Assembly: GCA_020630395.1 (NCBI GenBank)
Contig: JAHDBM010000008.1
Location: forward strand, 1-34,898
Length of the DNA stretch: 34,898 bases
Source of the DNA: Flavobacteriales bacterium
Lineage (GTDB): Bacteria > Bacteroidota > Bacteroidia > Flavobacteriales_D > CAJJDF01
Direction: 5' to 3'
Every line of letters starts with the position of its first letter. Position 1 is the stretch's first letter. Below are positions 9,478-34,110 of this stretch, piece after piece. The notes under the pieces were generated by a model. The model had not been told where the DNA came from, searched no databases, and worked only from the letters and a program-made list of their open reading frames with translations. Both the position numbers and the translations under genes were made by a program.

Positions 9478-12400
9478 TTACTCTCGAGTAATTTTATAAG
9501 GTAGGTTATTAATGTATAATACATAACTTCCTTTAGCAAGGTTTGTCATATCAAGTGTTTCTTGATAGTTCTTACTTTGCTGATCAAAAGATCGATCAGT
9601 AATTAAATTACCTAATATATCAACTAACCTTAGCGATAAGTTCTCTTCTTTATTAAACTCTACTTGAATATTTAATAATCCATTAGTAGGGTTAGGGAAT
9701 ATCTTAAGATCACTTAATAATTCATTTTCATCAACTCCAATAGAAGAATTAACGGTTATTGTTTGACAAGTACTAACCGTATCACAAGCAGGGTTATCTA
9801 CAATTAAACAAACAGTGTATGTTCCTGCAGTTGCATAAACATGATTGTTGTTTTGTGAAGTAGAGGTATTACCATCTCCAAAATCCCAATCCCATTGTGT
9901 TGCACCACTAGAATTATCGGTAAACAATACATTTAATCCGGCTGCAGTTTGAGTAAATGCTGCAGTTAAGTTATCAAAGACTGTAATATGTCCTGTACTT
10001 GTTTTAGTATCAGATCCAGAAGCATTAGATACTTGTAGTACTACATCATAAGTTCCTGGAGAACTATACGTAACTACAGGGTTTTGAGTAGTAGATGAAG
10101 CAGGTGTTCCACCATTAAAAGTCCAGTTCCAAGAAGTTGGACTACCAGTAGATTGATCGTAGAAGTTAACAGAGCTTCCAGCACATACTAAAGTTGTACT
10201 TGAAGAAAAGTTAGCTACCGGAGTAGGTGAACCAGTATTACACTGCCAATCTATTTGGAATCCTTGTAAATGTAATCCAGGGTCAGTATGGAAATGTATC
10301 GTTACAGCACCACCAGTTGAAGTTATAGTTGGCGGAGGTGTACTAGTATTACAAAATTTACCTAATGAAGGAGAACTAGTTGTTGGTCCATCAAAAATTT
10401 CTAAGTAATCATAATCACATGCTACAGCTCCTCCCGAACCTGGTTCTATATCAAAGAATGCCATGTTAAGTGTAACTGATGTGGCACCAGTTGGAGCAAT
10501 TGTAATGTAAGAATCCTGATTAGGTGTGTAGTTTCCGCTTGGTCCACCATCATCATAAACAGTTCCTGTACATTTAGTTTGTGTAGGATGTGTTGTATTA
10601 GGAGGTAAAATAATAGGACATGTAGTATCTACTTGTATGTAAGCTGTTCTAGTTAAACTATCACTTCCTGAACCATTTGTTGCAACTAATTTTACAGGAT
10701 AAGTTCCAGGAGTATTATATGTTACACTTGGATTAGTAGCAGTTGAAGTGGCTGGAGTACCTCCAGTAAATGTCCAAGAATAGCTAGTTGCATTTATACT
10801 AGAATTGTTAAAAGTTACATTGTCACCTACACATATAGTTGTTGGTGTACCTGTGAATTGAGCAGTAGGTAGTGGGCTTCCGCCTGTAACACAGTTCCAT
10901 GAAATGCTAAACCCTTGTAAATGTAAACCTGGATCAGTATGAAAATGAATAGTAATTGCACCTCCAGTAGAGTTAATAATACTAGGCGGAGGATTATTTG
11001 TGTTACAATATTTTCCTATTAATGGCGAACTAGTAGATGGGCCATCAAAAATTTCTACATAATCGTAACCACAGTTTGTAAATCCTTCAACATCAAAAGA
11101 ATTAATTGTAAGGTTAACTTGAGCAGCACCAGTAGGAGCAATAGTAATATACGAATCTTGGTTAGCAGAATATATACCACTTGGCCCACCATCATCATAT
11201 AAAGTACCTGCACAATTTGTGTCTGTAATATTACCATTTACTGGTAAAATAAGTGGACATGGATTAGATGGATCAACATCAATGTAACCCACTTTAGTTA
11301 TTGAATCTATTCCACAACTTCCACCATCAGCAACTAATTTAACCGTGTAAAGTCCTGTAGCTGTATAAGTATGAGTTGGATTTGCAGCTGTGCTTGTGTT
11401 TCCATCACCAAAATCCCAACTGTACGTAATAGCGTTATTACTTAAGTTATTAAATGTAACAGTAAATGGAGCAGCACAACCAACAGTTTTATTAGCAGCA
11501 AAATCTGCTGTAACATTTGGATTATATGCACTACCAACACCTACTGCATACCAAGCATCAGTAGTAGCTTCAACTTCAGGTGAACATCCCCCATATAAAT
11601 CTGTTGCAGCTTTTATAGCATAGAAACGAGCATCAACATATTGAGAACTAGAAGTTAAATAAACAGTTAAATTTCTAAAAGCAATTTTTTCAGCAATATT
11701 AAATCCTTGAGCAGTAACAGAGTATGAATTACTTAAATCATTTGTTCCTGTTCCACCATTTACCATTAAATAATACCAGAAATTTTGAACTCCACTGTTA
11801 TAATGAACTCCTCCATTATCACCAGATCCAGTATACCAATGTTGCCCCAAATAGGTGTCAGGATGGTTTTTTGCATTTGGATTCGACATATTTCTCATTA
11901 CCCAAGATCCGTTAGATATTTCATCACCAAGTATCCAATTTGCTTGACTAGGTCTTGACCAAAAATCAATTGAAATTCCAAAAATATCAGCAAATGATTC
12001 ATTTAGCGCTCCAGATTGATATGAATAAACTAAGCCAGCAGTTCTTGAGACTAACCCATGTGTAATTTCGTGTCCAGCAATAACCATTGAAGTCAATGGT
12101 TTGGTAGGGAAAGGATTAGAGCTTGTTATAATTGTATCTCCATCTCCATAAGTCATTCTTGATCCATCCCAAAAAGCATTAACAAACTTTGTTCCATAAT
12201 GAATATAACTTCTCAATCGAAAACCGGCATCATCAATTGAGTTTCTATTGTGAACTGACCAAAAATAGTCATAAGTCATTTCAGCTCCCCAGTGAGCATC
12301 ACCAGCATATTGATCTAATTGTGCATTAGCATTATTCCAATTATTGTCATTATCAGTAAAATCTATAGCACTGCCATGGCTTGTATTCTGATTTAAATCA

Positions 12401-13218
12401 TAGGTTTCAACTCCATTACCTCTTCCTGACTCTCTTAATCTGTAAGCTCCTCCAAAAGAATCTGCGGTTATTGGTTGAGTCCCACTATAACCCGTGACTG
12501 CTGTGCCAACAACATCCGCAGTATGAATTAAATCGTTTGAAAAAAGAATTTCTCCGGTATTAGCATCAATGTATAATTCTTTTCGACTTAATGGTTCTTG
12601 TGCGTATATATCTAACTTGTATGCTAATCGAATAGCCTTTGATAGGTCTCCATCTTTTGTGATATAAACTAACTCACTTTTAGGAAAAAATGTAGCAGAA
12701 GGATCATTTTGCTCTGCTTTAATAAATAATTCTTCATTAGGATCTTCCCATTTATACCTTGCTGCACCAATATGACCTTTCGCAATTTGTAAAGCTGTAT
12801 TAAAAGATATAGATGCACTGCTATTTTTTGGCGTGCTAGATAAAGCTTCTCCATTTACAGAAACTACTTTTCCATTTTTAGTATGAACAATAATCATAGA
12901 ATGTTCAACAGGAAAACCGTTTATGGTTTGTTTGTACCTGTAATGATTCATGTTTAATTTATCTTTAGTAGTATTGATAAAATCAAATGATAAATTATTT
13001 TTTGTTGTAGTATTAAGAATATCAAAAATTTCGGATGTAGAAGGTTCTTTTCCTTCGATAAATTCAATGTAGTTTGGTACTTCAGTGAAAGATTTTAGAC
13101 GAATTGTCTTTGCATTATTTACTTTATCGAATGCATCTTGACCAGTTATAACTTGAATTTCTTGGCCAAATACGATACTTGAAAGCCCAATAATAGGCAG
13201 GAGTACTAATCTTTTCAT
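9478..13218 (-). CDS. Secreted M4 (thermolysin-like) metalloprotease with PKD/CUB repeats and T9SS sorting domain
   Basis: This is a zinc endopeptidase exported across both membranes. A signal peptide (about residues 1-19) is followed by an FTP/PepSY-type propeptide to about 225 and the M4 catalytic domain, about 235-560. The catalytic domain has H383-E-I-T-H387, the third zinc ligand Glu407 in NESFADIFG, and His472 in GGVHYNSG. The spacings equal thermolysin's H142, E166 and H231. Then come PKD (about 567-650), CUB (about 653-775), PKD (about 780-860), CUB (about 865-994) and two more PKD domains. A type A T9SS sorting domain with the FPNP motif closes the protein (from about 1160). PKD and CUB domains probably bind substrate or surface polymers. 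The two PKD-CUB modules are near copies. It has its own terminator, and 75 bases separate it from the upstream gene. The substrate is unknown. Confidence 0.95.
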   Translation of the reverse strand: MKRLVLLPIIGLSSIVFGQEIQVITGQDAFDKVNNAKTIRLKSFTEVPNYIEFIEGKEPSTSEIFDILNTTTKNNLSFDFINTTKDKLNMNHYRYKQTINGFPVEHSMIIVHTKNGKVVSVNGEALSSTPKNSSASISFNTALQIAKGHIGAARYKWEDPNEELFIKAEQNDPSATFFPKSELVYITKDGDLSKAIRLAYKLDIYAQEPLSRKELYIDANTGEILFSNDLIHTADVVGTAVTGYSGTQPITADSFGGAYRLRESGRGNGVETYDLNQNTSHGSAIDFTDNDNNWNNANAQLDQYAGDAHWGAEMTYDYFWSVHNRNSIDDAGFRLRSYIHYGTKFVNAFWDGSRMTYGDGDTIITSSNPFPTKPLTSMVIAGHEITHGLVSRTAGLVYSYQSGALNESFADIFGISIDFWSRPSQANWILGDEISNGSWVMRNMSNPNAKNHPDTYLGQHWYTGSGDNGGVHYNSGVQNFWYYLMVNGGTGTNDLSNSYSVTAQGFNIAEKIAFRNLTVYLTSSSQYVDARFYAIKAATDLYGGCSPEVEATTDAWYAVGVGSAYNPNVTADFAANKTVGCAAPFTVTFNNLSNNAITYSWDFGDGNTSTAANPTHTYTATGLYTVKLVADGGSCGIDSITKVGYIDVDPSNPCPLILPVNGNITDTNCAGTLYDDGGPSGIYSANQDSYITIAPTGAAQVNLTINSFDVEGFTNCGYDYVEIFDGPSTSSPLIGKYCNTNNPPPSIINSTGGAITIHFHTDPGLHLQGFSISWNCVTGGSPLPTAQFTGTPTTICVGDNVTFNNSSINATSYSWTFTGGTPATSTATNPSVTYNTPGTYPVKLVATNGSGSDSLTRTAYIQVDTTCPIILPPNTTHPTQTKCTGTVYDDGGPSGNYTPNQDSYITIAPTGATSVTLNMAFFDIEPGSGGAVACDYDYLEIFDGPTTSSPSLGKFCNTSTPPPTITSTGGAVTIHFHTDPGLHLQGFQIDWQCNTGSPTPVANFSSSTTLVCAGSSVNFYDQSTGSPTSWNWTFNGGTPASSTTQNPVVTYSSPGTYDVVLQVSNASGSDTKTSTGHITVFDNLTAAFTQTAAGLNVLFTDNSSGATQWDWDFGDGNTSTSQNNNHVYATAGTYTVCLIVDNPACDTVSTCQTITVNSSIGVDENELLSDLKIFPNPTNGLLNIQVEFNKEENLSLRLVDILGNLITDRSFDQQSKNYQETLDMTNLAKGSYVLYINNLPYKITRE
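10236..10622 (-). repeat. CUB-coding repeat, downstream copy
   Basis: This encodes residues of about 865-994 of the protease, from CPIILPPN to DWQC. It matches the upstream copy at about 10890-11260 in long blocks, such as YDDGGPSG, QDSYITIAPTGA, YLEIFDGP and IHFHTDPGLHLQGF. Together with the neighbouring PKD segments it forms a duplicated PKD-CUB module. The DNA similarity is visible but interrupted. Confidence 0.8.
10890..11260 (-). repeat. CUB-coding repeat, upstream copy
   Basis: This encodes residues of about 653-775 of the protease, from CPLILPVN to SWNC. It shares YDDGGPSG, QDSYITIAPTGA, YVEIFDGP and IHFHTDPGLHLQGF with the other copy. This copy lacks the three-residue-longer GSGGAV loop seen in the second copy, so the two have begun to diverge. 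Confidence 0.8.
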
Positions 13219-24245: not shown

Positions 24246-24470
24246 AATATTTTGTTAATGAAATTATGAATTACAAATACTGCGCCATTAGTTTAAATAC
24301 TCTAACAACCCTTTAAAAACCCACTTTTCGGCATTAATTAACAAAAGTATGTTGAAAAAATGGGATTTTCTCCCACCATTATTTAGTTGCTTTTTATATG
24401 CGTGTAAAGTGCATTTTTATTAGTTTTTTTTAAAAAGTAAAACTTTTTATGCTTTCTTTACGTTATAAAG

Positions 24471-24479
24471 TTATCCACA
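24471..24479 (+). promoter_or_regulatory. DnaA-box-like sequence upstream of mraZ
   Basis: TTATCCACA is an exact copy of the classical high-affinity DnaA box (TTATNCACA). It lies directly before the first MraZ box. Read on the other strand it supplies an inverted TGTGG, so it could equally be a fourth, reversed MraZ half-site. Only one such box was noticed, so this is not an origin. Confidence 0.4.
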
Positions 24480-24480
24480 A

Positions 24481-24506
24481 TGTGGTTTATTGTGGGGGAA
24501 TGTGGG
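24481..24506 (+). promoter_or_regulatory. MraZ operator: three TGTGG boxes with a 10-base period
   Basis: TGTGGTTTAT, TGTGGGGGAA and TGTGGGATAT follow one another exactly in phase (24481, 24491, 24501). MraZ, the repressor encoded by the first gene of the dcw cluster, is known in other bacteria to bind tandem TGGG-type boxes separated by five bases just upstream of its own gene. The layout here is the same, which supports autoregulation of the whole cluster. The third box ends 11 bases before the -10 element, so bound MraZ would cover the promoter. Confidence 0.85.
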
Positions 24507-24516
24507 ATATATTAAA

Positions 24517-24524
24517 TATCTTTG
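24517..24524 (+). promoter_or_regulatory. -10 element of the dcw promoter
   Basis: TATCTTTG is an exact TAnnTTTG match. Transcription would start near 24531, only about six bases before the ATG at 24537, giving a nearly leaderless mraZ message. The -33 region is not clear (a TTG at 24490-24492 is 24 bases away) and is occupied by the MraZ boxes. Confidence 0.65.
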
Positions 24525-24536
24525 CCCATTATAGTT

Positions 24537-24992
24537 ATGTCTTATTTAGGAGAATACATATGCAAATTAGACGCAAAAGGTCGTCTTACTGTCCCAGCTG
24601 GATTAAAAAAGCAGTTGGAAAATGACGGTAAGGAGGGGTTTGTCTTAAACCGAGGGTTTGAGGGGTGTCTTGGGTTGTATCCTTTTAAAGATTGGCAGGC
24701 TGTTGCAGATAGATTGGAGAATTTGAATTTGTTTGTAGCGAAAAATAGAGCTTTTGTAAGGAAGTTTCAGAATGGAGCTTCTCGTTTAGATATGGATGGT
24801 AATGGTCGAGTGTTATTGCCTAAAGATTTAATGGCTTATGCAGGAGTAACTAAAGAGGTTGTTTTGTTTGCTTATGCAGATAGAATAGAGCTTTGGGATA
24901 AAAAACGCTATGATAAAATGATGAATGAGGAGATGGATGATTTTGCAGAGCTTGCAGAAGATGTAATGGGAAAGGATATGGATGACAAGTAG
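24537..24992 (+). CDS. mraZ: Transcriptional regulator MraZ
   Basis: MraZ is a DNA-binding repressor that controls the dcw cluster and forms a ring-like oligomer. Both conserved half-motifs are present: KLDAKGRLTVPAGLKK near the N-terminus and RLDMDGNGRVLLPKDLMAYAG in the second repeat. The length is 151 residues. The frame extends upstream to a TTG at 24522, but that codon overlaps the -10 element, so the ATG at 24537 (MSYLGEYICKLD) is the real start and also matches the family's usual beginning. The gene end overlaps rsmH by 11 bases. Its own operator lies directly upstream. Confidence 0.96.
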   Translation: MSYLGEYICKLDAKGRLTVPAGLKKQLENDGKEGFVLNRGFEGCLGLYPFKDWQAVADRLENLNLFVAKNRAFVRKFQNGASRLDMDGNGRVLLPKDLMAYAGVTKEVVLFAYADRIELWDKKRYDKMMNEEMDDFAELAEDVMGKDMDDK

Positions 24993-25890
24993 CGAATATC
25001 ATATCCCCGTTCTTTTAAATAGTTCGGTAGAAGGGCTTGATATAAAGCCTGATGGAACGTATGTGGATGTTACCTTTGGGGGTGGTGGTCATTCAAAAGA
25101 AATTTTGAAAAGATTATCGAGCAAAGGAAGGTTGTTTGGATTTGATCAAGATGAAGATGCTCAAAACAATAGTATTGGTGACGAGCGTTTTTCTTTGATT
25201 CCAGAAAACTTTGGGTATATCGAAAATTACTTAGCGCTTTATGGTGTAAATAAAGTGGACGGTATACTGGCTGATTTGGGAGTTTCTTCTCATCAGTTTA
25301 ATCAAAAAGATCGTGGGTTCTCTATTCGTTTTGAGGGAGATCTTGATATGCGAATGGATCAATCAGCTTCACTTTCAGCTATCCAGGTTGTGAATGAATA
25401 TGATGAGGAGCAGCTTGCTTCTATTTTTCGTCAATATGGAGAATTGAAAAATGCATGGAGACTCTCTCAAACAATTGTGCTTCGAAGAAGTGAAGGCAAG
25501 ATTAAAACAACTCAGCAGTTAATTGGTTTGATTGAAGATTTGGCTCCAAAGAAAAAGATGAATCAATTTTTGGCTCAAGTTTTTCAAGCAATCCGAATTG
25601 AGGTTAATCAGGAGTTGGAGGTGTTAAAACAGTTTTTGCTAGCCTCTTCTTCTTTGCTTGGTAAAGGTGGTAGACTTTCGGTTATATCTTATCACTCTTT
25701 AGAGGATCGATTAGTGAAGAATTTTATTAAAAAAGGAAAGTTTGAAGGAGAGTTAGAGAAAGATTTTTATGGTAATGTAATACGTCCATTTAAAGAGGTT
25801 AATCGAAAAGTGATTATACCGAATGAAGAAGAAATTAAGCAAAATTCAAGAGCGCGTAGTGCGAAATTGAGAATTGCTGAAAAATTATAA
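24982..25890 (+). CDS. rsmH: 16S rRNA (cytosine-1402 N4)-methyltransferase RsmH (MraW)
   Basis: RsmH is an SAM-dependent methyltransferase that modifies C1402 in the decoding centre of 16S rRNA. The SAM-binding start is HIPVLLNSSVEGL, followed by YVDVTFGGGGHSKEIL. LADLGVSSHQFN and RGFSIRFEGDLDMRMD are family signatures, and the C-terminal SYHSLEDRLVKNFIKK is highly conserved. The length of 302 residues is typical. It overlaps mraZ by 11 bases and precedes the ftsL-like gene by six, the standard dcw order. Confidence 0.97.
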   Translation: MTSSEYHIPVLLNSSVEGLDIKPDGTYVDVTFGGGGHSKEILKRLSSKGRLFGFDQDEDAQNNSIGDERFSLIPENFGYIENYLALYGVNKVDGILADLGVSSHQFNQKDRGFSIRFEGDLDMRMDQSASLSAIQVVNEYDEEQLASIFRQYGELKNAWRLSQTIVLRRSEGKIKTTQQLIGLIEDLAPKKKMNQFLAQVFQAIRIEVNQELEVLKQFLLASSSLLGKGGRLSVISYHSLEDRLVKNFIKKGKFEGELEKDFYGNVIRPFKEVNRKVIIPNEEEIKQNSRARSAKLRIAEKL

Positions 25891-25896
25891 GTACAA

Positions 25897-26244
25897 ATGA
25901 GTGCTGAAGAAAAAAAGGAAAGAATAAACATTTTTAAGCCAGTTAACGATTTGTTGTCGGGTAACTTTTTTGGAAAAAAGTTTGTTCAAAACAATCTTCC
26001 TTTTGTGTTGTATTTGGGTTTGTTGGTGGTGGTGTATATATGGTATGGGTATTATGTGGATGGCGTTATGAAAAAAGCATCTGCATTAGAAAATATGGAA
26101 GAATTAAACTCGGAGCTACATGCTTCGATACAGGAATTGAATACCGTGAGTTTGCAATCAAATATTGCAAGTAAAACGAAAGAAATTGGATTAGAGGAGC
26201 TGAAAGAGGCTCCTGTTAAAATAGAAGTAAAAGAAGTTGAATAA
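25897..26244 (+). CDS. ftsL: FtsL-like division protein
   Basis: This small bitopic membrane protein of 115 residues has a cytoplasmic N-terminus (about 1-36), one membrane segment (about 37-53, LPFVLYLGLLVVVYIWYGYY), and a periplasmic helical region with leucine spacing (about 60-100) that suits a coiled coil. Sequence identity to FtsL is always low. The call rests on this layout and on its place between rsmH and ftsI. FtsL acts with FtsB, FtsQ, FtsW and FtsI at the division site. The end overlaps the TTG start of ftsI by eight bases. Confidence 0.85.
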   Translation: MSAEEKKERINIFKPVNDLLSGNFFGKKFVQNNLPFVLYLGLLVVVYIWYGYYVDGVMKKASALENMEELNSELHASIQELNTVSLQSNIASKTKEIGLEELKEAPVKIEVKEVE

Positions 26245-28315
26245 AAAAGAAAATATATCGTCAAGAATATACTTAGTGTACTTTGGTGTGCTTGCATTTT
26301 CTTTGTTTGTCATTGTTAAGATGTTTAGAACTCAGTTGGCTAATGCTGGTGAAGAGCAAAATATTATCAGTGCTATAAAAGAGGTGAAAATAAAGGCTTC
26401 TAGGGGGAATATTTTTGCTGATGATCAAGAAAAGAGTGCTTTAGCTATTTCGGTTCCTGTGTATGAGATTCGGTTGGATTTGCTAGCTCCAAAACAAGAG
26501 TTGTTTGATGATAAAGTGGATTCTTTAGGCTTGGTTTTATCTAAGATATTTAACGATAGATCTGCGGTAGCTTATGCTAAGCGTTTAAGGACAGCTAGAG
26601 GAGAGAAAAATCAATATTTTTTATTGAAAAAGAAAGTTTCTTACACTCAAATGAAGCAAGTTAAAGAGGCTCCAATCTTAAGAAAAGGTCAATTTAAAGG
26701 TGGTTGCATTGTGTTAAAAGAAAATACAAGAAAGCATCCTTTTGAGTTGTTAGGGGAAAGAACAGTTGGGTATTTTAATGAGACAGATACGGTTGTTGGG
26801 TTAGAGGGGGCTTATAAACAATTTTTAAGAGGTAGGGATGGTGTGCAGTATATGAAAAATGTAGGAGGTGGTCAAAGGATACCAATTAGTGATGATTATA
26901 TAGTTGAGCCTCAAAATGGCATGGATATTTACACAACAATTGATGTTAATCTTCAAGACGTTGCTGAGCGCGCCTTGTTAAATCAATTAGAAGCTCAAGC
27001 AGCTGAACATGGTTGTGCGGTTTTAATGGAGGTAGAAACAGGTCATGTTAAAGCGATAGCTAATTTATCGAAAGATCGTAAAGGAAGGTATAGAGAGATA
27101 TACAATCATGCTGTAGGTAGGGCTACTGAGCCTGGGTCTACTATGAAACTAGCTTCTGTTATGGTTGCGCTTGAGGATGAGAAAACAACACTTAATGAGT
27201 TGTTTGATACGTATGATGGAACACTTAAATTTTACGATAGGATAATGAAAGATGCGCACATTGGAGGGGATGGTGTTATACCGCTTTCCAAAGGATTTGC
27301 TATTTCGTCAAATGTGGTTATTTCTCAAATGGTAAATAACGCATATAGAAAAGATCCTGCAAAATTTGTTCAAGGAATGCGAGACTTAGGGCTTGGAGAT
27401 AAATTGGGGGTTGAGATAAAGGGAGAAGGAAAGCCATATTTGAAAAATCGACAAGATTCTACTTGGTCGGGTGTTACTTTGCCATGGATGTCTATTGGGT
27501 ATGAAACTAAGTTTACACCATTGCAAATGCTAACGTTTTATAATGCTGTGGCAAATAATGGTAGAATGGTTAAGCCTCAATTTGTAAAGGAGGTTAGAGA
27601 TGGTAGTAAGGTAGTTGAGTCTTATGAAACGGAGGTGCTGAAAGAAAGAATAGCTTCAGAGAAAACAATTAAGCAAGCGCAAAAAATACTAGAGCTAGTT
27701 GTAGAAGAGGGTACTGGGACAAACCTTAAAAATACACAATACAAAATAGCGGGTAAAACAGGTACTACTCAGTTGGCTTATGGGGCAACTGGATATGGTG
27801 CTAATTCTAAGGTTCGTCATCAGGCTTCTTTTTGTGGCTATTTTCCTGCAGATAAGCCTAAGTATTCTTGTATTGTGGTGGTTGCTGCACCTACAAAAAG
27901 TATCTATGGTAATGTGGTTTCTGGAACAGTATTTAAAGAAATAGCAGATAGGGTATATGCTCAAGATATTGAAATGGCTAGATCTAAAGAGGATCTAAAA
28001 AAAGGAAATATGCCAGCTTCTAAAAGTGGTTACGCTAAAGATTTAACAACCGTTTTTGGTGCAATGAAAGTAGCAACTACCTATTCAAATGATGCTGTTG
28101 AGTTTGCAAGAACAAGCGCAAAAAAAAATAAAGTGGTAATTGCTCGATTGGTAACTAATGGTGTTCCTGATGTAAAAGGAATGGGGCTTAAGGATGCCTT
28201 GTTTTTATTGGAAAATAAAGATTTTAAAGTAAGAGTAAAAGGTAGTGGTGTCGTGAAAGAGCAAAGGGTATTGCAATCTGGACAAAATAAAACAATTGAA
28301 TTGATACTAGTATAA
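26237..28315 (+). CDS. ftsI: Septal peptidoglycan transpeptidase FtsI (PBP3) with PASTA domain
   Basis: FtsI cross-links septal peptidoglycan at the division site. A TTG start overlaps the ftsL-like gene, and no earlier ATG exists in frame. The protein has a cytoplasmic lead, one membrane segment (about 10-30), and a class B dimerisation domain with KIKASRGNIFADD. The transpeptidase domain has S301-T-M-K304, S357-S-N359 and K507-T-G509, all intact. A C-terminal PASTA domain (VPDVKGMGLKDALFLLENKDF) ends the 692 residues. PASTA on FtsI is usual in Bacteroidota. The stop is three bases before the RDD gene. Confidence 0.97.
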   Translation: MNKKENISSRIYLVYFGVLAFSLFVIVKMFRTQLANAGEEQNIISAIKEVKIKASRGNIFADDQEKSALAISVPVYEIRLDLLAPKQELFDDKVDSLGLVLSKIFNDRSAVAYAKRLRTARGEKNQYFLLKKKVSYTQMKQVKEAPILRKGQFKGGCIVLKENTRKHPFELLGERTVGYFNETDTVVGLEGAYKQFLRGRDGVQYMKNVGGGQRIPISDDYIVEPQNGMDIYTTIDVNLQDVAERALLNQLEAQAAEHGCAVLMEVETGHVKAIANLSKDRKGRYREIYNHAVGRATEPGSTMKLASVMVALEDEKTTLNELFDTYDGTLKFYDRIMKDAHIGGDGVIPLSKGFAISSNVVISQMVNNAYRKDPAKFVQGMRDLGLGDKLGVEIKGEGKPYLKNRQDSTWSGVTLPWMSIGYETKFTPLQMLTFYNAVANNGRMVKPQFVKEVRDGSKVVESYETEVLKERIASEKTIKQAQKILELVVEEGTGTNLKNTQYKIAGKTGTTQLAYGATGYGANSKVRHQASFCGYFPADKPKYSCIVVVAAPTKSIYGNVVSGTVFKEIADRVYAQDIEMARSKEDLKKGNMPASKSGYAKDLTTVFGAMKVATTYSNDAVEFARTSAKKNKVVIARLVTNGVPDVKGMGLKDALFLLENKDFKVRVKGSGVVKEQRVLQSGQNKTIELILV

Positions 28316-28318
28316 AGA

Positions 28319-28822
28319 ATGAGAGAAGAAACATTGGATGATATAATAGAAAAAGATAAGACAGAGTTTGCTTATGCTGGTTTTGGTAAGCGTTATGCTG
28401 CGGTAATGATTGATACTGTTTTAATAGCATGGATTGCTACTTATGCCGTTAAAAATATGATTCATGAAAACATAACCTTATCGAATTTAATTTCTGGTGA
28501 AGGTTATGAAGGAGGTTTTTATGGAGAATTAGAAGTGCAAAATTTCATCACTTATATATTGTTTATGATGTTGTTTAGATGGTTATACTTTGCTGGTATG
28601 GAAAGTTCTCCATTTAAAGCAACTGCAGGAAAGTTATTAGTTGGATTGTATGTTGAAAATACAGAAGGTGGTAGAGTAACTTTTTTAAAGGCAACAGGTA
28701 GATATTTTGGAAAGATACTTTCGGGATTGATTTTATATATAGGGTATTTAATGATGTTAGGTAGTCCAACAAAACAAACATTACATGATCAAATGAGTGG
28801 TTGTGTAGTAAAAGAAAAGTAA
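28319..28822 (+). CDS. RDD-family membrane protein inside the dcw cluster
   Basis: This 167-residue protein of the RDD family begins its domain with KRYAAVMIDTVLIAWIATYA. It continues with the KATAGKLLVGLYV block typical of the family and ends near LHDQMSGCVV. Three hydrophobic segments are visible. RDD proteins are poorly understood; some have been proposed as ion-transport or stress-related membrane proteins. The gene starts three bases after ftsI and ends ten bases before murE, so it is transcribed with the division genes. This placement is not part of the standard dcw order. Confidence 0.85.
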   Translation: MREETLDDIIEKDKTEFAYAGFGKRYAAVMIDTVLIAWIATYAVKNMIHENITLSNLISGEGYEGGFYGELEVQNFITYILFMMLFRWLYFAGMESSPFKATAGKLLVGLYVENTEGGRVTFLKATGRYFGKILSGLILYIGYLMMLGSPTKQTLHDQMSGCVVKEK

Positions 28823-28832
28823 AAGATTAGAA

Positions 28833-30296
28833 TTGAAATTGCTAAAAGACATATTGTATAAGGTTTCGCTAACAGGAGTAGTTGGTTCAACTAGTGCTGC
28901 AGTAGAAAAAGTGACTTTTGATTCAAGAGAGGTTAGTCGAAAAACATTGTTTGTTGCGATTAAAGGAGAGGTAGTAGATGGTCATGATTATATTGAGCAG
29001 GCAATTAAGGCTGGAGCTTTAGCTATTGTTTGTGAAGTTGTTCCGGATAATATTCAGTCTGGAATTACGTATGTTCAAGTTGAAAGTTCGAGCGAAGCTT
29101 TAGGAATAATTGCAAGTAATTTTTACGATAATCCATCAAGAAAATTAAAGCTTGTTGGTGTTACTGGAACTAATGGCAAAACAACTACTGCTACTTTGCT
29201 GCATAATCTATTTATGAACCTAGGTTATAAAGCTGGCTTGCTATCTACTGTAGTAAACAAAATTGGTAAAATTGATATTCCTGCTACTCATACCACTCCT
29301 AATGCAATAGCATTGAATGAGCTGTTGGTAGAAATGGTAGAGGCAGGTTGTGATTACTGTTTTATGGAGGTAAGCTCACATGCATTAGTTCAAGGTAGAG
29401 TTGCTGGAGTTAAATTTGAGGGAGCAGTCTTTACGAATATTTCTCACGACCATTTAGATTACCATAATACGTTTAAGGAATATATAAAAGCTAAAAAGCT
29501 CTTGTTTGATAATTTGTCGTCAGATGCATTCGCCATTGTTAATGTAGATGATAAAAATGGACCGGTTATGGTTCAAAATTGCAAGGCAAATATTATGTCT
29601 TATGCCTTAAAAACGGGAGCTGATTACAAAGCAAAAGTGTTAGAAAATCAATTTTCTGGTCTTCAGTTAAATCTAAACGGTAATGACATTTGGGTAAGAC
29701 TTATTGGTGACTTTAATGCTTATAATGTATTGTCAGTTTATGCGGTTGCTATGCAGTTTGTGGAGGAAGAATTAGATGTGTTAGCTGCTATTAGCAATTT
29801 GGATAATGTACAAGGACGTTTTCAATATATCCAAACTGAAGGAAAAATTATTGGTATAGTGGATTATGCTCACACGCCAGATGCATTAGAAAATGTCTTA
29901 AAAACCATTAAGAATATAAGAACTGGTAACGAAAAGGTAATTACGATAGTGGGTTGTGGTGGAGACAGGGATAAATTAAAGAGACCTAAAATGGCTGAGG
30001 CAGCTTGTGCTTTCAGTGATAAAGTAATTCTTACATCTGATAATCCAAGAAGTGAAGAGCCTGAAGCTATAATTGCTGATATGAAAACTGGCGTTTCTCC
30101 GGCAGATTTTAAGAAAGTGCTAGCAATTACAAATAGAGAAGAGGCTATAAAAACAGGTTCTGCTTTGGCTGAAGAAGGAGATATTATTCTAGTTGCAGGA
30201 AAGGGACATGAAAATTATCAAGAAATAAAAGGAGAAAGGTTTCCATTTGATGATATGGAAATACTTCAAGAATCATTAAAAATATTAGATAAATAA
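28833..30296 (+). CDS. murE: UDP-MurNAc-tripeptide synthetase MurE (meso-DAP type)
   Basis: MurE adds the third amino acid to UDP-MurNAc-L-Ala-D-Glu. The ATP-binding loop is [10 protein letters not shown] (109-118, Lys116). It is followed by [14 protein letters not shown] and [14 protein letters not shown]. The specificity motif is D403-N-P-R406, which marks addition of meso-diaminopimelate rather than lysine. That agrees with a Gram-negative Bacteroidota wall. The start is TTG ([11 protein letters not shown]), since no in-frame ATG precedes it. Its TAA overlaps the ATG of mraY by one base. murF is absent from the cluster between murE and mraY. Confidence 0.97.
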
Positions 30297-31576
30297 TGTT
30301 ATACCACCTTTTTACATATCTAAATGAAATGGATGTTCCTGGAACAGGAGTATTTCAGTATCTATCTTTTAGAGCTGCAATGGCTATTATTACTTCGCTA
30401 ATTGTAACACTAGTTTTTGGTAAAAGACTAATAAATATTTTAAGAGCTAAGCAGGCAGGAGAGACTGTTCGTGATTTAGGGTTAGAAGGTCAAAAAGAAA
30501 AAGAAGGTACTCCTACAATGGGTGGCTTAATTATTCTTGCTGCCATTTTAATACCAACACTGTTGTTTGCTAAGCTTGATAATATCTACACCATTACCAT
30601 GATCATAACAACTGTTGGTTTGGGAGCAATAGGGTTTATTGATGATTATATTAAAGTTTTTAAAAAGAATAAAAAAGGATTAGCTGGTAAGTTTAAAGTT
30701 GTTGGGCAAGTTGGTATTGGTATTGTGGTTGCTTGTCTATTATTCTTTAATGATAATGTCACTGTAAAAGAAAAGGTTGAGGTTCAGTACATAGATGGAT
30801 TCAAGGATAAGATTGGAGAGAATCTTATCGGAGTTACTGAGGTGTTTAAAAAGGATGAGCCAACAGTGTTAGATTATTACTGGGTAGAGCATCATTCATC
30901 TAAAACAACAGTGCCGTTTATTAAAAATAATGAGTTCGATTATAAATGGTTAGTGCCTTTTGGAGATGACGAAAGTAAAAGTAAATGGGCTTGGCTAATT
31001 TTTGTTCCCATTGTAATTGTAATTGTAACGGCAGTTTCTAATGGAGCCAACCTTACTGATGGTATTGATGGTTTAGCTACCGGTACATCTGCAATAGCTG
31101 GTGTTACCTTATTGATTTTTGCTTACATATCTGGTAATATCATTTTCTCAGGCTACCTAAATGTGATGCATATTCCAAATACAGGAGAACTTGTAATTTT
31201 TATGAGTGCATTTGTAGGGGCTTGTATAGGGTTCTTGTGGTTTAATGCATTTCCTGCACAAGTATTTATGGGAGATACTGGGAGTCTTGCTATTGGAGGA
31301 ATCATAGCGGTATTCGCAATTGCGATTAGAAAAGAATTATTAATTCCTGTTATATGTGGGATATTTTTAATCGAAAATGTTTCAGTAATGATGCAGGTAG
31401 CTTGGTTTAAATATACCAAGAAAAAATACGGAGAAGGACGAAGAATATTTTTAATGTCACCCTTGCATCATCATTACCAAAAGAAAGGTATGCATGAGGC
31501 TAAAATTGTAGCAAGATTCTGGATTGTGGGGATCATGTTTGCAGTGATATCAATCGTAACATTAAAATTGAGATAA
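30296..31576 (+). CDS. mraY: Phospho-MurNAc-pentapeptide transferase MraY
   Basis: MraY makes lipid I from UDP-MurNAc-pentapeptide and undecaprenyl phosphate at the inner membrane. Conserved sites are PTMGGLIIL, the Asp pair D116-D117 in [27 protein letters not shown] with D255 and D258, and the histidine triad H391-H392-H393. The protein is 426 residues against about 360 in E. coli. The difference is a hydrophilic insertion at about residues 155-225, between transmembrane segments. Such an insertion is a known Bacteroidota trait (recalled). The gene overlaps murE by one base. Confidence 0.97.
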
Positions 31577-31582
31577 AAGAGA

Positions 31583-32923
31583 GTGAGTACAAACAAGACC
31601 ATAGCAATTTTAGGAGCTGGCGAAAGCGGGGTAGGAGCTGCTGTGCTTGCTAAAAAGCAAGACTATGATGTGTTTGTATCCGATAAAGGTTATATAGCAG
31701 ATAAGTACAAAACTCAATTAATTGATCATGGAATTGACTGGGAAGAAGGAGCTCATACATTAGAAAAAATTCTTAATGCAGATGAAGTTGTAAAAAGTCC
31801 AGGTATTCCAGAAAAAGTAGAGTTAGTTCAGTTATTGTTGGAGCAAAGTACTCCTGTTATTTCTGAAATTGAATTTGCAAGTAGATATACGAATGCAACA
31901 ATTATTGGTATTACGGGAAGTAACGGAAAAACAACAACTACATCTCTTACTTATCATATTCTAAAAAAGGCAGGATTAAATGTAGGTGTAGCAGGAAACA
32001 TTGGAGATAGTTTTGCTTTACAAGTAGCTACACAAGACTATGATTATTATGTGCTAGAATTAAGTAGCTTTCAGTTAGATGGAGTTAAAGAGTTTAGAGC
32101 AGATATAGCTGTTTTACTTAATGTAACTCCAGATCATTTAGATCGATATGAATACAAATTTTCGAATTACTTGAATTCGAAATTTCAAATAACAAATAAT
32201 CAAACACAAGATAATTACTTCATCTATTGTAATGATGATGAAGCGATAACAGGAAAATTAAAGGATTTAAATCTACCTATGAAACAATTGCCTTTTAGTA
32301 TAAAGGAAACAGTAGAAGAAGGAGCCTTTTTAGATAAAGAAAAATTACTCATCAATATAAAAAACGAATCGTTCAATATGTCAATTCACGATCTAGCACT
32401 TAACGGGAAGCATAACCTGTACAACTCAATGGCCTCAGGAATAGCTGCCAGAATTTTAGACTTACGCAAAGATGTTGTAAGGGAAAGTCTTTCCGATTTT
32501 CAAAATGTAGAACATAGGCTAGAGCATGTTGGCTTTATTAATGGAGTAGAATTCATTAATGATTCTAAAGCTACTAATGTAAATGCTGTTTGGTTTGCTT
32601 TGGAAAGCATGACTAAACCAGTTATTTGGATAGCTGGAGGAGTTGATAAAGGAAACGATTATGAAGAGTTAATGCCTTTAATAAAAGATAAAGTAAAAGC
32701 ATTGGTTTGCCTTGGGACAGATAATTCCAAGCTGCATGCCGCTTTTGATGGGGTTATTGATACATATGATGCAAGTTCTGCAATGGAAGCAGTAAAGATG
32801 AGTTATAAGCTTGCAGCTAAAGGTGAAAGCGTGCTACTTTCTCCAGCATGTGCAAGTTTCGATTTATTTGAAGATTATGAACAAAGAGGATTTAGATTTA
32901 AAGAAGCTGTAAGAGAATTATAA
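31583..32923 (+). CDS. murD: UDP-MurNAc-L-alanine:D-glutamate ligase MurD
   Basis: MurD adds D-glutamate to UDP-MurNAc-L-Ala in the cytoplasm. The N-terminal Rossmann fold has AILGAGESGVGAAVLAKK. The ATP-binding loop is GITGSNGKTTTT (Lys116). LNVTPDHLDRYEYKF and WIAGGVDKGNDYEEL are family signatures, and LLSPACASFDLFEDYEQRG near the C-terminus is the D-Glu/UDP-side motif. The length of 446 residues is usual. The start codon is GTG at 31583, six bases after mraY. An in-frame ATG nearby does not exist. Confidence 0.97.
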   Translation: MSTNKTIAILGAGESGVGAAVLAKKQDYDVFVSDKGYIADKYKTQLIDHGIDWEEGAHTLEKILNADEVVKSPGIPEKVELVQLLLEQSTPVISEIEFASRYTNATIIGITGSNGKTTTTSLTYHILKKAGLNVGVAGNIGDSFALQVATQDYDYYVLELSSFQLDGVKEFRADIAVLLNVTPDHLDRYEYKFSNYLNSKFQITNNQTQDNYFIYCNDDEAITGKLKDLNLPMKQLPFSIKETVEEGAFLDKEKLLINIKNESFNMSIHDLALNGKHNLYNSMASGIAARILDLRKDVVRESLSDFQNVEHRLEHVGFINGVEFINDSKATNVNAVWFALESMTKPVIWIAGGVDKGNDYEELMPLIKDKVKALVCLGTDNSKLHAAFDGVIDTYDASSAMEAVKMSYKLAAKGESVLLSPACASFDLFEDYEQRGFRFKEAVREL

Positions 32924-32943
32924 GATTGAGGTTAAAAGTATAA

Positions 32944-34110
32944 ATGAACACATTATTTAAATATTTAAAAGGAGACCGAGTGGTATGGGTAGTAACATTG
33001 TTACTGTCGGTTATCTCGATCCTTATTGTGTACAGTTCTACTTCTCAATTATCCTATAAATTTAAAGGAGGAAATACAGAGGCTTACTTAATGAAGCATG
33101 TCTTTATCATGGGGTTAGGTTTCTTGGTAATGATCTATGTGCATAAATTAAATTTTAAGTATTTTTCTAGACTATCTCAAATTGGTGTTATAGCATCAGC
33201 AGCATTGTTGTTTATTACCTTATTAATGGGTACTAGCGTAAACTCTGCTTCTAGGTGGATATTAGGGTTTCAACCATCAGATTTAGCTAAGATTACACTA
33301 ATTGTGTATTTAGCTAGACAGCTTTCTATGTATAAAACAGAGTTAAAAGTCTTTAAAACATTTGCGTTAAAAATTTTGTTGCCAATTGCCGTAATATGTG
33401 GCTTAATACTACCTGCCGATTTTTCTACATCTATGATGTTATTTGTGGATTGCATGGTGTTAATTTTCATTGCAAACATTTCAATGAAATTTATTGGTAT
33501 AACATTAGGTTCTGCTGTTATGGGATTCTTGTTGTTATTGTTGTTAGGTGTGGCATTTCCTAAGCTATTACCTAGAGCTAAAACTTGGTCATCTAGGGTA
33601 GCTACATTTATTGGTGCAGGAGAAGCTGAAGATACAGCAGATAAGAACTATCAAACTAATTTGGCTAATTCGGCAATTGCATCTGGAGGTTTATTTGGTA
33701 ATGGACCGGGTAAAGGAAAAACAAAATACATTTTACCTTCAGCTTGGGCAGATTTTATTTTCGTGTCGTTTGTTGAGGAATATGGATCGCTTTTAGGAGG
33801 GGGGACATTAATTTTACTATATCTTATTATACTCTTCCGAGTCATTAAAATTGCAACTGGTACAGAAAACAATTTTGCCAGATTATTAGTGTTTGGTTTA
33901 GGATTTAGTATTGTGTTTCAAGCGTTTTTAAATATGGGGGTAGGTGTAAATTTACTCCCAGTAACCGGTCAGCCATTACCTTTAGTGAGTATGGGAGGAA
34001 CATCTATTTTATTTACCTGTGTTGCTATTGGAATGATATTGAGTGTGAGCACAACAGTTTTTAAGCAAGAAGTTGAACAACAAAAAAAAGGAAAACATGC
34101 AGTCGCCTAG
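32944..34110 (+). CDS. ftsW: Septal peptidoglycan polymerase FtsW
   Basis: FtsW is the SEDS-family glycosyltransferase that polymerises lipid II at the septum together with FtsI. The 388-residue protein has about ten hydrophobic segments and the SEDS motifs STSQLSYKFKGG, GFQPSDLAKITLI, the loop GNGPGKGKTKYILPSAWADF, and the C-terminal PLPLVSMGGTSILFTC. The spacing to murD is 20 bases. Its stop codon overlaps the murG start by 14 bases. Confidence 0.97.
   Translation: MNTLFKYLKGDRVVWVVTLLLSVISILIVYSSTSQLSYKFKGGNTEAYLMKHVFIMGLGFLVMIYVHKLNFKYFSRLSQIGVIASAALLFITLLMGTSVNSASRWILGFQPSDLAKITLIVYLARQLSMYKTELKVFKTFALKILLPIAVICGLILPADFSTSMMLFVDCMVLIFIANISMKFIGITLGSAVMGFLLLLLLGVAFPKLLPRAKTWSSRVATFIGAGEAEDTADKNYQTNLANSAIASGGLFGNGPGKGKTKYILPSAWADFIFVSFVEEYGSLLGGGTLILLYLIILFRVIKIATGTENNFARLLVFGLGFSIVFQAFLNMGVGVNLLPVTGQPLPLVSMGGTSILFTCVAIGMILSVSTTVFKQEVEQQKKGKHAVA

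Follow-up and report, generated by a model that had tools for sequence, protein, structure and literature searches.

A conserved, probable DnaA box beside the MraZ repeats of the dcw promoter in Bacteroidia

Promoter elements upstream of mraZ

We analyzed a 34,898-nt stretch of a metagenome-assembled Flavobacteriales genome (contig JAHDBM010000008.1; hereafter "the window"), in which mraZ (24537 to 24992, plus strand) is the first gene of a dcw cluster. Its product, P0001, scores above the cutoffs of both TIGR00242 (124 bits versus a cutoff of 98) and PF02381, and its start, the ATG at 24537, is sound. On the same strand follow rsmH (mraW), an ftsL-like gene, a PBP/ftsI-like gene, an RDD-family gene, murE, mraY, murD, and an ftsW-like gene (together 24982 to 34110). 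The RDD-family gene (28319 to 28822, plus strand; PF06271), situated between the PBP gene and murE, encodes a membrane protein. Elsewhere in the window, the minus strand (9478 to 13218) encodes a large predicted secreted peptidase of the thermolysin family (M4), whose architecture includes PKD and CUB domains as well as a type IX secretion tail.

Ahead of mraZ lie the three plus-strand TGTGG boxes with an exact 10-base period that were described in the initial annotation: box 1 at 24481 to 24485, with its GTGG core kept in register, and boxes 2 and 3, likewise kept in register, at 24491 to 24495 and 24501 to 24505. The pattern GTGG-N6-GTGG-N6-GTGG occurs once in the window, so these direct repeats constitute a single MraZ array. 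The Bacteroidota -10 sequence reported just after the boxes is present as well, in the form of the -7 element TATCTTTG (24517 to 24524, plus strand). Promoters of the Bacteroidota primary sigma factor comprise TTTG at -33 and TAnnTTTG at -7 (PMC6847099, PMC9723704); TATCTTTG conforms to this TAnnTTTG consensus (PMC6847099) and also matches its revised version, TAHHTTTG (PMC6847099, PMC9723704). Both the conserved sequence of the element and its position agree with such a promoter, in which transcription starts 4 to 5 nt downstream, the start itself being predicted here. Placed by the spacing of Flavobacterium johnsoniae promoters, T-12 to G-5 (PMC6847099), the start falls at about 24529 and predicts a leader of ∼8 nt before the mraZ ATG, about two bases off the six originally proposed. 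A leader this short would be unusual, as 87% of the predicted F. johnsoniae transcripts have one of >10 nt (PMC6847099, PMC9723704). By the same prediction, the MraZ boxes begin at about -48, -38, and -28, which puts the third within the promoter's upstream portion.

Immediately before the array, we found an extended DnaA-box element, AAAG-TTATCCACA-A (24467 to 24480, plus strand), which is conserved at the MraZ array in relatives. Its 9-mer core TTATCCACA (24471 to 24479; predicted to span -58 to -50) is separated from box 1 by the single base A24480 and represents a perfect DnaA box by the classical consensus, TTWTNCACA. As had been noted, this core sits beside the first box and contains a reversed TGTGG, its CCACA being TGTGG on the minus strand. 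It is this reverse complementarity that makes the two readings offered for the element, an inverted fourth MraZ half-site or a DnaA site, indistinguishable within the window.

The window contains one exact copy of TTATCCACA. In 3.53 Mb, the 9-mer is rarer than its reversed control (22 versus 69 occurrences), and at this frequency, the probability of a chance copy within ∼30 bases of the array is ∼2e-4. The degenerate box TTWTYMACA has a background density of 0.228 per kb, so ∼4 to 5% (about 0.045) of 200-base regions should contain one by chance. Five genomes of the window's own family, when aligned, share a single conserved block that spans the element, the boxes, and the -7 element; further upstream, their sequences diverge.

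Conservation and spacing of the element among relatives

For a broader view, we compared the regions upstream of mraZ in 197 genomes; the counts for families f3 and f10 include one corrected locus each, at which the gene start had been misplaced owing to a contig end. Of 100 genomes of the order, 94 have the degenerate form AAAGTTWTYMACA next to their MraZ array. By family, TTWTYMACA was seen at the array in 6/6 genomes of f1 (the window's own family), 1/1 of f2, 41/42 of f3, 4/4 of f4, 2/2 of f5, 2/2 of f6, 11/11 of f9, 1/1 of f10, 24/26 of f11, and 2/3 of f12; f7 and f8 carry the close variants TTGTTAACA and TTTTAAACA, respectively. In the rest of the class, it was found in 2/2 genomes of f15, 14/15 of f16, and, in inverted orientation, 34/34 of f13 and 4/6 of f14; it is scarce at the arrays of f17 (0/3), f18 (1/3), and f19 (0/1). 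The element is kept in most of the related families sampled in the class. In other classes of the phylum, TTWTYMACA was present at the array in none of 33 genomes with mraZ, where MraZ-type boxes are nevertheless visible. Within the class, genomes lacking a mraZ match also lacked an intact mraW locus, except G195, whose mraZ is split over contigs; G249, another genome without a match, lies outside the class. As a natural experiment on the loss of mraZ, these genomes were therefore uninformative.

An observation from the other classes concerns the array itself. In those classes (L125, L132-L135, L142; family f31), a TTGACA/TACATT-like promoter stands directly ahead of the MraZ boxes, as in Escherichia coli; in Bacteroidia, the boxes precede the -7 element, and the array seems to have changed side of the promoter.

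The exact 9-mer of the window proved to be one among several conserved variants. Many relatives carry A instead of C at position 6, as do 40 of the 40 counted genomes of f3, which places their element outside the classical consensus. On a tree of 89 MraZ proteins, at least 14 C/A switches at position 6 are required, indicating that both letters work there, and orientation changed once. The initial annotation had pointed to loss of TTATCCACA from relatives that keep the TGTGG boxes as evidence against a DnaA site; in the relatives examined, the DnaA reading survives such a comparison, whereas the exact 9-mer is not invariant. Two features nevertheless speak against the DnaA reading: the departure of the f3 elements from the classical consensus, and a 5′ AAAG that is more strongly conserved at mraZ than upstream of dnaA.

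These substitutions bear directly on the proposal that the element is a fourth, inverted MraZ half-site and that the region is purely MraZ autoregulated. A half-site should keep its GTGG core among relatives, yet in the majority of genomes, the reverse complement of the element reads GTTG or GTTA, cores that occur in 0 of 432 register positions of true arrays and in 0 of 102 f13 boxes. While the exact reverse complement of TGTGG in the window, the 10-base phasing relative to the boxes, seen in both the order and f16, and the fact that the element adjoins the array wherever it is found at mraZ would all suit a half-site, the f13 element is flipped and 13 to 16 bases away, the arrays of other classes do without it, and copies are also found upstream of dnaA where no array is present. 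We consider this reading, contradicted by the C-to-A changes, the 0/33 count, and the array-free copies at dnaA, quite improbable, and rejected it on the grounds of core composition, flipped orientation, and class distribution. The alternative, a DnaA site, gains from the same comparison, as the order and much of the class share a degenerate putative box, TTWTYMACA, beside the array.

The distance of the element from the array is nearly constant and changes in 10-base steps. In direct orientation, GTGG boxes begin 10, 20, 30, and 40 bases from the element (50, 69, 83, and 30 cases, respectively), with 19/29 and 21/31 as minor variants. Of 108 genomes, 95 have a TAnnTTTR sequence downstream of the element, and in 90 it lies 45 to 57 bases away; the distance to the -7 element is typically 46 to 47 bases (61 genomes) or one helical turn more, 56 to 57 bases (22 genomes). 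In f13, the inverted element precedes the first box by 13 to 16 bases. Taking 15 bases from the CACA end of this flipped form, the major-groove contact of DnaA would be about one turn off that of the direct form, an arithmetic that is only approximate since the f13 spacing varies.

Further upstream, about 10 bases before the element (24461 to 24464 in the window; L018-L083), a CGTT/CGTA motif is conserved in f1, f3, and f9. In f3, it was counted in 25 of 40 genomes (3.4 expected), accompanied by a G[AT]AAC motif in 30 of 40 (1.1 expected). A TAnnTTTG sequence sometimes lies upstream of these motifs, possibly as a second promoter; this candidate was set aside, being above chance in f3 (12 of 40 versus 1.7) yet not general.

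Related boxes at dnaA and the DnaA protein

If the element is recognized by DnaA, related words might be expected where DnaA regulates its own gene. Upstream of dnaA in 32 f13 genomes, the three word classes found at mraZ are indeed strongly enriched: we counted TTWTCCACA 16 times (0.5 expected), TTWTCAACA 13 times (0.95 expected), and TTWTTAACA 22 times (2.4 expected), with TTWTAAACA somewhat raised (7 versus 2.5). As at mraZ, C and A interchange at corresponding positions in these regions (-204 on the minus strand and -58 on the plus strand), and no GTGG array was present upstream of dnaA in any of the 32 genomes. Enrichment in f3 is weak (TTWTTAACA, 16 versus 3.6; TTWTCAACA, 5 versus 1.2), and in the window's own family, no conserved DnaA box was recognized upstream of dnaA. 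What both f1 and f3 do have ahead of dnaA (L157, L159, L161, L242-L253) is an extended AT-rich stretch, TTTTTTTTTAACTTTTTTnTGTnAATATTTG, which is conserved and contains no recognizable DnaA box.

A cluster of boxes was found in genome G246 (L306:11561-11852), where four boxes with C at position 6, AAGTTATCCACA among them, occupy an intergenic region beside a nadB-like gene, ∼11 kb from dnaA. This cluster looks like a candidate replication origin. Considering the words enriched upstream of dnaA in f13, their C/A interchange, and the oriC-like cluster of G246, the element probably represents the form that the DnaA box takes in this lineage, with the weak signal in f3 and the lack of a recognized box in f1 as the main gaps in that argument. 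Triple direct DnaA boxes were also sought in a set of 14 genomes, with no useful outcome.

One might instead assign the element to a third regulator, common to the mraZ and dnaA promoters of Bacteroidia, with AAAGTTWTYMACA merely resembling a DnaA box. The 5′ AAAG and the tolerated A at position 6 do exceed the textbook box, and the weak enrichment upstream of dnaA in f3 would fit as well. However, the window copy and those of many relatives are perfect DnaA boxes, the oriC-like cluster in G246 includes AAGTTATCCACA, and enrichment at dnaA is the very signature expected from DnaA autoregulation, which together make a third regulator unlikely.

The DnaA protein is present and has its entire DNA-binding domain. 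The recognition loop of its domain IV (L149-L271) has the sequence DHAT in both the order and f16, DHST in f13, f15, f17, and f18, and DHTT in f14, whose element has only C at position 6. The loop motif may relate to the tolerance of A at this position. As a covariation, this is suggestive but was set aside, for the lineages are too few and DHAT families show both letters.

A dcw promoter with two predicted inputs

Most likely, the element is a conserved DnaA box that would relay the status of the replication initiator to the dcw promoter, alongside autoregulation by MraZ; the 66-base region upstream of mraZ is, in our estimation, probably a dcw promoter with two inputs, the MraZ array and the DnaA box. 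Lying on the same face of the DNA, the three MraZ boxes would extend over the promoter's upstream portion and serve autoregulation, occlusion of that portion by MraZ being the natural reading since the repeats sit upstream of the -7 element. DnaA, at -58 to -50 and at a constant helical phase relative to both the boxes and the -7 element, would act on the same promoter, most likely by altering MraZ assembly or RNA polymerase access. Next to box 1, it could exclude MraZ, recruit MraZ, or touch RNA polymerase; the sign of regulation might be activation or antirepression, or else corepression. Transcription of the division genes would then track the availability of DnaA (DnaA-ATP) around initiation. 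What we observe is the sequence, its conservation, spacing, and orientation, and the identity of its motif with sites ahead of dnaA in f13; from these patterns, we infer DnaA binding, its interplay with MraZ, and any role in timing. The tie between division and replication raised in the initial annotation is supported as regards sequence conservation and not as regards function.

A real DnaA box could also serve titration or chromosome organization, or be a passive relic, without controlling dcw transcription. Isolated DnaA boxes can act as reservoirs, and many DnaA-regulated promoters have several boxes, which counts against DnaA control of a dcw promoter carrying a single one. Nonetheless, we regard a box without a regulatory role as very improbable here: in about ten families, its phase relative to the MraZ boxes and the -7 element is fixed, and this, together with the orientation-specific spacing, points to a promoter role. 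The fixed phase favors an interplay of DnaA with MraZ or with RNA polymerase over a passive box.

The conservation of the putative DnaA box suggests a widespread, presumptive link between the start of replication and the making of the division machinery. More tentatively, and with less than even confidence, we propose that the dcw promoter of Flavobacteriales and related orders might be a class-wide composite switch, on one helical face of which DnaA-ATP and MraZ act in competition or cooperation, each round of initiation directly timing or dosing the synthesis of the division machinery. A long-kept putative DnaA box in fixed phase with an MraZ array offers a ready genetic handle on the coupling of replication and division. 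In addition, we suggest A at position 6 as part of the Bacteroidia DnaA-box consensus, which would aid the prediction of origins and regulons in this class.

How does this arrangement compare with known systems? According to PMC8203912, DnaA binds the Bacillus subtilis ftsL and Caulobacter crescentus ftsZ promoters and has been proposed to activate ftsZ in Caulobacter, and a major effect of transcriptional control by DnaA on the timing of cytokinesis has been shown in no species. Proteomics of B. subtilis with arrested replication found the detected products of the ftsL operon unchanged (PMC11019786), which counts against DnaA control. The present case resembles the ftsL and ftsZ promoters in having a putative DnaA box at or near a division-gene promoter, and B. 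subtilis also in the dcw operon region concerned (PMC8203912). Different from both, a single box is locked beside an MraZ array and conserved over much of the class; no coupling to MraZ is described for ftsL or ftsZ in the text consulted (PMC8203912). MraZ arrays and division-gene DnaA boxes are known separately, and our search of open-access papers found none that joins the two.

On the MraZ side, the protein represses its own operon through GTG repeats in E. coli, and binding has also been shown in Burkholderia (PMC7761207). As with MraZ autoregulation in E. coli, Burkholderia cenocepacia, and Mollicutes, the array described here consists of direct GTG-containing repeats with a 10-base period upstream of mraZ (PMC7761207 and references therein). 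However, while the repeats of E. coli and Burkholderia lie downstream of the -10 element, those of the window and the related families lie upstream of the -7 element and are joined by a putative DnaA box.
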